Positions 42,105-45,643 of a DNA stretch of 64,000 nucleotides are shown piece after piece. Each line of letters starts with the position of its first letter. The first letter of the stretch is position 1. The stretch is from NCBI GenBank assembly GCA_019358975.1, contig JAHHIL010000001.1:496001-560000 (forward strand), read 5' to 3'. The notes beneath the pieces are model-generated. The model did no database searches. It was not told the DNA's origin and saw nothing but the letters and a program-made list of their open reading frames with translations. This DNA comes from Trichocoleus desertorum ATA4-8-CV12. Its GTDB lineage: Bacteria; Cyanobacteriota; Cyanobacteriia; FACHB-46. Made by a program: the position numbers and the translations under genes.

Positions 42105-43223
<1,119 letters not shown>

Positions 43224-43259
43224 GTGGGCTAAGTCGTCAAAGGTACGAGTGGCGCATCT

Positions 43260-43306
43260 ACGCCTGTACTGTTAGTAAGGAAACGGTGCAGGCGTTTAGT
43301 TTTTTG
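43260..43306 (+). terminator. Rho-independent terminator after prfA
   Basis: ACGCCTGTAC pairs with GTGCAGGCGT (one G-T wobble) across a loop of about 16 bases and is followed by TTAGTTTTTT. It lies 37 bp after the prfA stop. Confidence 0.8.
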
Positions 43307-43375
43307 ATTTGCTAACAAAAGTGTCGCGCAGGCGGTGACTGTCAACGTCTGATGATTGAGTCTTAGAGGGATCAA

Positions 43376-43800
43376 ACTTACAGATGTTTGACACTCCCCG
43401 GCGTGAACGCACGGGGATTCTTGGATCTTCGACAAACCTTAAAGCAAACCATCCTTGCGGCAATCCTTAAACCAACCAACCGTGAGTACACGAATTGACG
43501 AGCTTAACTTGGTCCACCCCAGAGGGGCCTGTCTCCCCAAGCGTCCTAGGATACGAGCCTAGCGTTAAGGCGTGCCCCGCCTTACGTTTCTGGGCAACTA
43601 AGTATTTGGTTTTCTCTGTCGTGGGAAGACGTGGCTTTCCCTGCCTGTTTAACGAGTTTTCGACGCTCGGTGCCCCTACTTTATGCCTAAAAGTGTGTCT
43701 TAACCGTTTCACGATGGCAAAGGAGTTTCACCTTGGCAGCTAGCACAATTCTATCAAAAGCCGTCCTAGAAGGACGGGGTTTTAGACCCAAGGTTCTGAT
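43376..43800 (-). mobile_element. Degenerate TnpB-type (IS200/IS605-like) element or solo omega-RNA remnant
   Basis: The right-end hairpin 43396-43416 (CCCCG, GCG-TGAA-CGC, CGGGG), read on the minus strand as AGAATCCCCGTGCGTTCACG..., is in my recollection a frequent end of cyanobacterial TnpB elements. The other side has a hairpin CCGTCCT-AGA-AGGACGG (43761-43777) followed by GGGTTTT. Between them only an 81-codon minus-strand ORF (43467-43712) remains, with no recognisable TnpB domain. I infer a shrunken element that lost its nuclease gene, oriented on the minus strand. Exact ends were not resolved. Confidence 0.5.
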
Positions 43801-43924
43801 AAGGATCGTTGACCGCCAACTATAATTAAATTTTGTTGCAGATTCAGCGCTTGGCGATCGCTAGAAAAACTGCATTCCTGCCTTGTGCCAACTCTCCCCA
43901 CCCTACCTGCCTCGGAGGCTCTGA

Positions 43925-45643
43925 ATGCTACGGTTAGAGCGTATTAGCAAAATTTACCCCACTGGCGAAGTTCTAAAAGATGTCAGCTGGGAAGTCAAAC
44001 CAGGCGATCGCATTGGTTTAGTCGGGGTAAACGGGGCAGGGAAATCGACCCAGCTAAAGATTATTGTGGGAGAGATCGAGCCAACGGCGGGCGAGGTGAT
44101 TCGACCTGCGAGCTTGCGGATCGCCCATTTAACTCAGGAGTTTGATGTAGATCCAACTCGGACTGTCCGAGAAGAGATGTGGCAAGCCTTTGAAGAGGCG
44201 AACCAAGCGCATATCGCCTTGTCAGAAATCCATCGGCAAATGGAAACTGCTACTCCCGCAGAATTAGACGTTCTCATCCGCAAGATGGATCGCTTCCAGC
44301 GGCAGTTTGAGGCTTTAGATGGGTATGGATTAGAAGCGCAGATTGAAAAGATCTTGCCAGAAATTGGTTTTGAACCTGAAGATAGCGATCGCTTAGTCAG
44401 CGCCTTTAGTGGGGGTTGGCAGATGCGGATGAGTTTGGGCAAAATTTTGCTCCAGTCCCCTGATCTTCTGTTGCTCGACGAGCCGACGAACCACCTAGAT
44501 CTAGAAACGATCGAGTGGCTGGAAACCTATCTCAAAGGATTGACCACCCCTCTGGTGATTGTCTCCCATGACCGAGAATTTTTAGATCGCCTTTGCACCC
44601 AAATTGTAGAGACCGAGCGTGGAGTTTCGACCACCTACCTAGGCAACTACTCAGCCTATCTGCAACAGAAGTCTGAGCTGCGCGATGCCCAACTTAGTGC
44701 CTACGAACGGCAGCAAAAAGAACTCGATAAGCAACAAGCTTTTGTAGATCGTTTCCGCGCTAGCGCAACTCGCAGTACCCAGGCTAAGAGCCGTGAAAAG
44801 CAGCTAGAAAAAGTTGAGCGAATTGAAGCTCCTATCGGGGATGTCCGCACCCTACACTTCCGCTTTCCCCCTGCCCCCCGGAGTGGTCGGGAAGTGGTGA
44901 TGATCGAAAATTTGGTTCATACCTACGACGAGAAGATTCTGTTTTTAGGGGCAGAGCTTTTAATTGAGCGTGGCGATCGCGTGGCTTTTCTAGGTCCGAA
45001 TGGAGCTGGCAAATCGACTGTTCTCCGCTTAATTATGGGCATGGAGCAAGCGACCGAGGGCAGCGTTAAGTTAGGGGATCATAACGTCATTCCTAGCTAC
45101 TTCGAGCAAAATCAAGCCGAAGCTTTGGATCTCAATAAGACCGTCATGGAGACAATTCATGATGAGGTGCCTGACTGGAAAAATGAGGAAGTCCGGACAT
45201 TATTAGGACGATTTTTGTTTAGCGGCGATACCGTTTATAAGCGTGTAGAAGCACTGAGTGGGGGCGAGAAAGCCCGTCTAGCTCTAGCTAAAATGCTGCT
45301 CCAGCCCGCTAACCTCTTGATTCTGGATGAGCCTACCAACCATTTGGATATTCCAGCCAAAGAAATGCTGGAAGAAGCGCTCCAAAATTATGATGGAACA
45401 GCAATTATCGTCTCCCATGATCGCTATTTTATTTCTCAGGTCGCTAATAAAATTGTGGAAATTCGAGATGGAGAATTCCGAGTTTATTTGGGAGATTATC
45501 ATTACTATTTAGAGAAGGTTGCTGAAGAAAAAGAAAAAGCTAAGCTGGCTGCTATAGAAGCTGAGAAGGCGGCTAAAGTAGCGGCGAAACGCGAAAAACA
45601 ACGCGAAAAAGAGAAATCTAAAAAGACCCAAGCGCAAGCTTAA
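43925..45643 (+). CDS. ABC-F family ATPase
   Basis: 572 residues with two ATP-binding cassettes and no membrane helices. Cassette 1: GVNGAGKST, FSGGWQMRMSLGKILL, LLLLDEPTNHLDL. Cassette 2: GPNGAGKST, LSGGEKARLALAKMLL, LILDEPTNHLDI. A coiled linker (about 240-295) and a Lys/Glu/Ala-rich C-terminal coiled tail are typical of translation-associated ABC-F factors. Members act on the ribosomal E site or resolve stalled ribosomes; which subfamily this is cannot be fixed by eye. Confidence 0.92.
   Translation: MLRLERISKIYPTGEVLKDVSWEVKPGDRIGLVGVNGAGKSTQLKIIVGEIEPTAGEVIRPASLRIAHLTQEFDVDPTRTVREEMWQAFEEANQAHIALSEIHRQMETATPAELDVLIRKMDRFQRQFEALDGYGLEAQIEKILPEIGFEPEDSDRLVSAFSGGWQMRMSLGKILLQSPDLLLLDEPTNHLDLETIEWLETYLKGLTTPLVIVSHDREFLDRLCTQIVETERGVSTTYLGNYSAYLQQKSELRDAQLSAYERQQKELDKQQAFVDRFRASATRSTQAKSREKQLEKVERIEAPIGDVRTLHFRFPPAPRSGREVVMIENLVHTYDEKILFLGAELLIERGDRVAFLGPNGAGKSTVLRLIMGMEQATEGSVKLGDHNVIPSYFEQNQAEALDLNKTVMETIHDEVPDWKNEEVRTLLGRFLFSGDTVYKRVEALSGGEKARLALAKMLLQPANLLILDEPTNHLDIPAKEMLEEALQNYDGTAIIVSHDRYFISQVANKIVEIRDGEFRVYLGDYHYYLEKVAEEKEKAKLAAIEAEKAAKVAAKREKQREKEKSKKTQAQA

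Follow-up and report, generated by a model that had tools for sequence, protein, structure and literature searches.

Results

A 411-bp mobile element separates prfA (42120-43223) from an ABC-F ATPase gene (43925-45643), the two genes being named from a reading of their translations. The window in which it was found, that is, the whole stretch of DNA analyzed, comprises 64,000 nucleotides from contig JAHHIL010000001.1 of the cyanobacterium Trichocoleus desertorum ATA4-8-CV12. The features of this locus are as follows, with the basis of each in parentheses.

43388-43798, minus strand: complete non-autonomous IS200/IS605-type element, 411 bp (empty-site comparison and second genomic copy)
43799-43802, minus strand: target site, or C_L tetranucleotide, TTAT, also the expected TAM (sequence; kept in the empty site of G001)
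43780-43783, minus strand: left-end guide tetranucleotide G_L, AAAA (sequence; fourth base complementary to that of C_L in 27 of 28 parsed members, not all independent)
43761-43777, minus strand: left-end hairpin CCGTCC-TTCTA-GGACGG (sequence, fold and likeness to a TnpB element of the same genome)
43748-43753, minus strand: -10 promoter-like box TAGAAT (at least 5/6 match to TATAAT in 26 of 41 relatives)
43609-43739, minus strand: predicted 5′ structured RNA domain, 131 nt, with a three-way junction and two hairpins and no Rfam match
43388-43585, minus strand: putative TnpB omegaRNA (reRNA) scaffold, 198 nt (model R2 finds tnpB 3′ ends; pair counts)
43417-43420, minus strand: right-end guide tetranucleotide G_R, GAAT (sequence; GAAT precedes the right-end hairpin in the family alignment)
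43396-43416, minus strand: right-end hairpin CCCCGTGCG...CGGGG, the predicted 3′ hairpin of the omegaRNA (sequence, fold and family alignment)
43388-43391, minus strand: right-end cleavage tetranucleotide C_R, TCAA (sequence; TCAA terminates all family members cut for the alignment, this string itself having been used to cut them)
43368-43387, minus strand: expected 20-nt guide from the flank, ACATCTGTAAGTTTGATCCC (position by analogy with the ISDra2 reRNA, as given in the available part of PMC8612924)

A mobile element with intact ends

The first-pass annotation had described positions 43376-43800 as a remnant of a TnpB element that keeps both end hairpins but no nuclease. The element is real, within limits now refined to exactly 43388-43798 on the minus strand. 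Both hairpins are present (43761-43777 and 43396-43416), the left one being shared with a TnpB element of the same genome (97% identity over 35 nt), and no TnpB gene lies between them. A protein-coding interior was rejected: neither of the two internal ORFs (81 and 82 aa) has a Pfam match, and ORF lengths by frame show no conservation over 40 relatives.

A second copy in the same genome is 97% identical over 416 nt. The comparison with relatives proposed in the first-pass annotation finds the sites of both copies precisely empty, without duplication, in congener G001. There, the two flanks in the prfA/ABC-F interval meet directly where the element sits in the source genome, a difference of exactly 411 bp, and the sequence adjoining TTAT in this empty allele is that of the expected guide (43368-43387); the site of the second copy is likewise empty by exactly 411 bp after TTAT. 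The prfA/ABC-F site is also empty in congener G002. Because of the near-identical second copy and the precisely empty congener sites, the element is not a chance occurrence: it is mobile, and its ends are defined. Insertion 3′ of TTAT without target duplication, sub-terminal hairpins related to those of IS605-type elements, and lack of a transposase gene are all traits by which PATEs are recognized.

IS608-type TnpA selects its target by matching of target and guide tetranucleotides. Among 41 members, 28 left ends could be parsed, which are not all independent because some members represent one insertion inherited by related strains (L049, L118, and L131, for example, have a common guide), and the fourth bases of C_L and G_L are complementary in 27 of these (23 T/A and 4 C/G), L044 being the single exception.

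The right half resembles a TnpB omegaRNA

Homology and position identify the right half of the element as a putative TnpB omegaRNA scaffold, in keeping with the earlier suggestion that this may be a guide-RNA-like locus. The covariance model R2, built from 11 TnpB-less elements only, finds tnpB 3′ ends, overlapping the stop codon, at 12 loci with E values of about 1e-17 to 1e-26 (L003, L028, L055, L058, L061, L063, L066, L076, L079, L203, L204, and L210; at L079, the tnpB-end match is the second R2 match at the locus). L086 and L088 have weaker R2 matches at tnpB 3′ ends, and L077 was left out of the TnpB-linked count as a family-B element (see below) beside a separate TnpB gene. In an alignment of 40 distinct sequences of both kinds, fitted to the model and so favoring structure, 93.8% of cells pair and 46 of the 63 pairs show two-sided changes; none of 500 shuffles reaches the observed value on any of five measures, and pairing falls to about 45% when partner columns are slid by one. 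The scaffold thus has homology to a tnpB 3′ end and right end, a conserved secondary structure common to TnpB-linked RNAs (in this model-fitted alignment) and, as judged by position and sequence, a flank guide adjoining a TAM equal to the insertion motif, as expected of an omegaRNA. An extra arm of ~55 nt (about 43452-43510 in the window) is kept in the TnpB-less family A, to which the element belongs, and is absent from TnpB-linked omegaRNAs.

The left half is predicted to be a second structured RNA

A single-sequence fold of the 411-bp element is no more stable than folds of shuffles (z -0.57), and neither strand outperforms its shuffles, so covariation was needed to show structure. Covariance modeling points to a second structured RNA with conserved folding in the left half; a prediction from 11 sequences arranges its helices as a three-way junction with two further hairpins. 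Pairing holds for 95.0% of cells in a fitted alignment of 43 distinct sequences, where both sides change in 16 of the 23 pairs. The same helices were recovered by a MAFFT alignment and de novo fold of 20 sequences outside R1, the model of this domain; these were found with R1 and are independent of its construction, not of its search, and in them 8 of 23 pairs change on both sides, the covariation term being small (-1.45 kcal/mol). The 5′ domain is linked to the omegaRNA across family loci, R2 following it directly in 38 of 42 (all except L105, L109, L110, and L112). At E ≤ 1, R1 detected no 5′ domain in the five TnpB loci scanned (L003, L055, L058, L061, and L063). Because the interior thus reads as a conserved two-domain RNA—a putative omegaRNA domain of ~198 nt and a predicted structured 5′ domain of 131 nt—the term "remnant" is unsupported; the element is intact and keeps far more than its end hairpins.

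A match of at least 5/6 to TATAAT occurs 7-18 nt upstream of the 5′ domain in 26 of 41 elements, compared with a mean of 6.1 and at most 14 such elements in base-shuffled sequences (1000 trials). In 38 elements the best hexamer has at least 4/6 matches, and in 33 of these its first base is exactly at -10; in the source element it starts at -14. The 5′ domain begins about 10 nt after the conserved -10 box. Given this box, the RNA would start near the first helix of the 5′ domain.

Searches against Rfam gave no match in the element, either at gathering scores over the 64-kb window or at E ≤ 1 over 43200-43930. Over 13 relatives at E ≤ 1, the only matches were to two nearby tRNAs and one weak match to a miRNA, and a search of L042 and a family-B element relaxed to E ≤ 10 gave weak unrelated matches only. 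The Rfam covariance model of HEARO RNA was unmatched, and no Rfam intron match indicated a group I intron core. Finally, no insertion far inside a long joined ORF was seen among 28 flank-joined elements: where each side of the element has at least 30 codons, the largest ORF spanning it is 106 aa (L109). In this joining, right ends were set by motif, and L098, L099, L109, and L112 are of atypical length with possibly wrong right flanks.

Distribution of the family

When 388 genomes of the class were searched at the DNA level, 110 had matches at E ≤ 0.001, mostly to the ends only, while the interior was matched in 15 of the 388, including the source, in seven families (DNA matches, counted by hand). 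Full relatives are ~370-460 bp long. In a scan of 41 family loci, TnpB ORFs were absent from the interior of every element; at four loci, one lies outside it. R1 matches were found in 12 of 386 genomes of the phylum; in the order-level search, the order of the source organism comprised three genomes only. A pattern of the 5′ domain, run over the GTDB species collection (84,980 genomes), identified 25 loci, 19 of which are cyanobacterial (Microcoleus, Tychonema, Nostoc, Leptolyngbyaceae, Oscillatoriales, and other cyanobacteria). The other six were rejected as chance, with no credible R1 match (best 16 bits, E 0.18). The pattern matched no IMG/VR contig, so a viral link was set aside. R2 matches are present in all 20 genomes searched and R1 matches in 16, a set made up of 18 genomes picked for family-A DNA or R1 matches (source included) and two congeners. 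Insertion sites and guides mostly differ among family copies. A third TnpB-less variant (C) is represented by L075 and L083, nearly identical at two places of one genome; its 5′ domain has a family-A-like layout (a hairpin with a GCGAANAAC-like loop), and its sequence is not close.

Potential partners in the same genome

R2 finds 13 places in the source genome: two family-A copies, two intact TnpB genes (C21 and C3), six places without a TnpB ORF, and three weak matches. Of the six, at least C4, C10, and C58 have the 5′ domain of another family, B, and the others are truncated where their contigs end; TnpB-less copies of families A and B outnumber TnpB genes among these matches. Contigs end inside family-B-like omegaRNA copies on G000 C31, C32, C58, and C87, a pattern that would arise had repeats interrupted the assembly, and copy numbers are therefore minimum values. 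Related full-length TnpB elements, on whose existence the first-pass annotation had made its reading depend, are present with homologous ends and omegaRNAs; together with the putative omegaRNA at the right end of the 411-bp element, they agree with its description as a non-autonomous TnpB-type element. Both TnpB proteins have PF01385 and PF07282 domains, and that of C21 matches ISDra2 TnpB (PDB 8bf8, E 1.4e-36). The C21 element has TTAT at its left end, the same motif as the 411-bp element, and the C3 element has TTAC, not TTAT.

Y1 genes are present in the source genome, but a search for one whose left end is intact and matches that of the 411-bp element found none. Among related elements with both tnpA and tnpB, the nearest is L008 (G000 C29:55250-58564), with a related right end and a truncated left end adjoining what reads as another transposase fragment. 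It might supply both TnpA and TnpB in trans.

Family B, the second TnpB-less family of this genome (L193, G000 C4:157400-160400; L194, C10:44900-47900), differs from family A in its left end and 5′ RNA domain (GGTAATCAACC...) but shares its right end and type of omegaRNA. L194 also has a divergent ORF of 42 aa with a weak ribbon-helix-helix match (RHH_1, 18.8 bits, below the cut-off of 20.5), and L193 was given the same reading by eye.

Discussion

The explanation that we favor, and consider reasonably probable, is that this locus holds an intact, conserved protein-less element whose product is an RNA of the omegaRNA type. It would be a guide-RNA satellite, a small parasite that relies in trans on the TnpA of other elements for movement and on their TnpB for upkeep. 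Its sole product would be an RNA with roughly 355 nt of its own, to which a guide from the flank is added: transcription would begin at the 5′ structured domain from a promoter just inside the left end, and would continue through the omegaRNA scaffold and past the right end into neighboring DNA, which would provide the guide. A TnpA (Y1) encoded elsewhere would carry out single-strand excision and insertion 3′ of TTAT, and a TnpB encoded elsewhere in the genome would load the omegaRNA and cut the empty donor site (TTAT plus guide), upon which repair from the sister copy would restore the element. We infer both the transcription of the element and the loading of TnpB in trans. Use of the RNA by TnpB in trans is plausible. 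In the available portion of PMC8612924, TnpB is shown to work with a right-end RNA whose guide comes from the flank and to accept this RNA from a separate plasmid, and cutting of the donor joint is proposed to let repair restore the element, while the accessible part of a preprint (PMC11870625) describes a drive effect in plasmids. The 411-bp element keeps all that would be needed to profit from such a TnpB in trans, namely the scaffold, the guide position, and a target equal to the TAM.

What, then, might the 5′ domain contribute? TnpB guide RNAs are by-products of the tnpB mRNA. Most likely, the 5′ domain replaces the role of this mRNA, either as a stable 5′ end for the omegaRNA or in TnpB capture; an own promoter-like box and an added 5′ domain would answer the needs of a satellite without tnpB mRNA. 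Several points speak against the favored explanation: the single-sequence fold that does no better than shuffles, the TTAC of the C3 partner, the exception of L044, and the lack, among the elements found in the source genome, of an intact TnpA element with the same ends. Moreover, because TnpB-linked omegaRNAs are without the ~55-nt arm, the actual partner could be a TnpB particular to this family, or a different protein. A more far-reaching version, which we put forward tentatively and as distinctly less probable, is that such guide-RNA satellites make up a class of transposons that have shed their proteins and whose specially evolved 5′ domain takes over the TnpB complexes of others (or another effector, or acts as a catalytic maker of the omegaRNA end). 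If true, such satellites would compete with TnpB elements for these elements' own nuclease.

It is unlikely that the element is a plain PATE or MITE, that is, a passive internal-deletion derivative whose ends are recognized and whose interior is filler or a decaying TnpB fossil. Near-terminal IS605-like palindromes, absence of duplications, and a length too short for a transposase are shared with the PATEs in the part of PMC3119063 available, and BLAST similarity to TnpB elements is confined to the ends. However, DNA matches show a conserved interior in 15 genomes of the 388, belonging to seven families, two-sided pair changes occur throughout it, and because the 5′ domain is in none of the five TnpB loci scanned with R1, the element is not a simple deletion product. 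Quite improbable is a small regulatory RNA adapted to the host and located in a transposon by coincidence, which would account for the promoter-like box and the conserved fold. Insertion sites and guides mostly differ between copies, and a congener lacks the element at both sites, which leaves no fixed host role for it at this locus. IStrons combine IS605 ends with a structured 5′ RNA, and we give a still smaller chance to the 5′ domain being part of a self-splicing intron that removes this IS605-ended transposon from transcripts: group I introns are longer than the 131 nt of this domain, no Rfam intron match was obtained, and none of the 28 flank-joined elements lies well inside a long ORF. 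A guide-RNA locus of IscB/HEARO type, suggested by a large RNA with IS605-like mobility, can be dismissed almost entirely, since the HEARO family is included in Rfam and went unmatched even at permissive thresholds and the scaffold is homologous to tnpB 3′ ends instead.

Should the favored explanation of a protein-less element served in trans be correct, a widespread family carrying a scaffold with its own promoter and an RNA domain would show guide RNAs as selfish elements that use nucleases in trans. The satellite idea parallels the separation of guide RNA from nuclease gene on the way to Cas12. Trans-loading, competition, and retention become directly testable in a cyanobacterium, and the family offers a scaffold variant for TnpB as well as an RNA domain outside the Rfam release searched. 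Titles and abstract openings of mostly non-subscription literature on non-autonomous or standalone guide RNAs of TnpB/IS605, cyanobacterial MITEs, and IS605 mobility mention no omegaRNA-only IS605 elements with an added RNA domain, and the passages of PMC12558985 and PMC10969869 retrieved by a term search hold nothing on omegaRNA-only IS605 elements.

Comparison with known systems highlights similarities and differences. Haloquadratum PATEs are alike in being protein-less, with IS605-like sub-terminal palindromes and no target duplication; they differ in that the available part of their description (PMC3119063) mentions no guide RNA or conserved internal RNA, whereas the 411-bp element has a putative full omegaRNA and a predicted structured 5′ domain. 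The omegaRNA of IscB, or HEARO RNA, is also a guide RNA of a mobile element, unlike which the present RNA has no Rfam match and a scaffold homologous to that of TnpB. Standalone omegaRNAs have reportedly been seen for IscB. In IStrons, too, IS605 ends are combined with a structured RNA on the left side, but the 411-bp family has no intron match and no insertion well inside long ORFs. The comparison also extends to IS200/IS605 TnpB elements such as ISDra2, in which, as far as the available portion of PMC8612924 describes them, the scaffold likewise ends at the right end, the guide comes from the flank, and the TAM is the insertion motif. The 411-bp element differs from these in having no tnpB, in the extra scaffold arm of ~55 nt, and in a transcript that, judging from its promoter-like box, appears to have a promoter of its own and to begin with an additional RNA domain.
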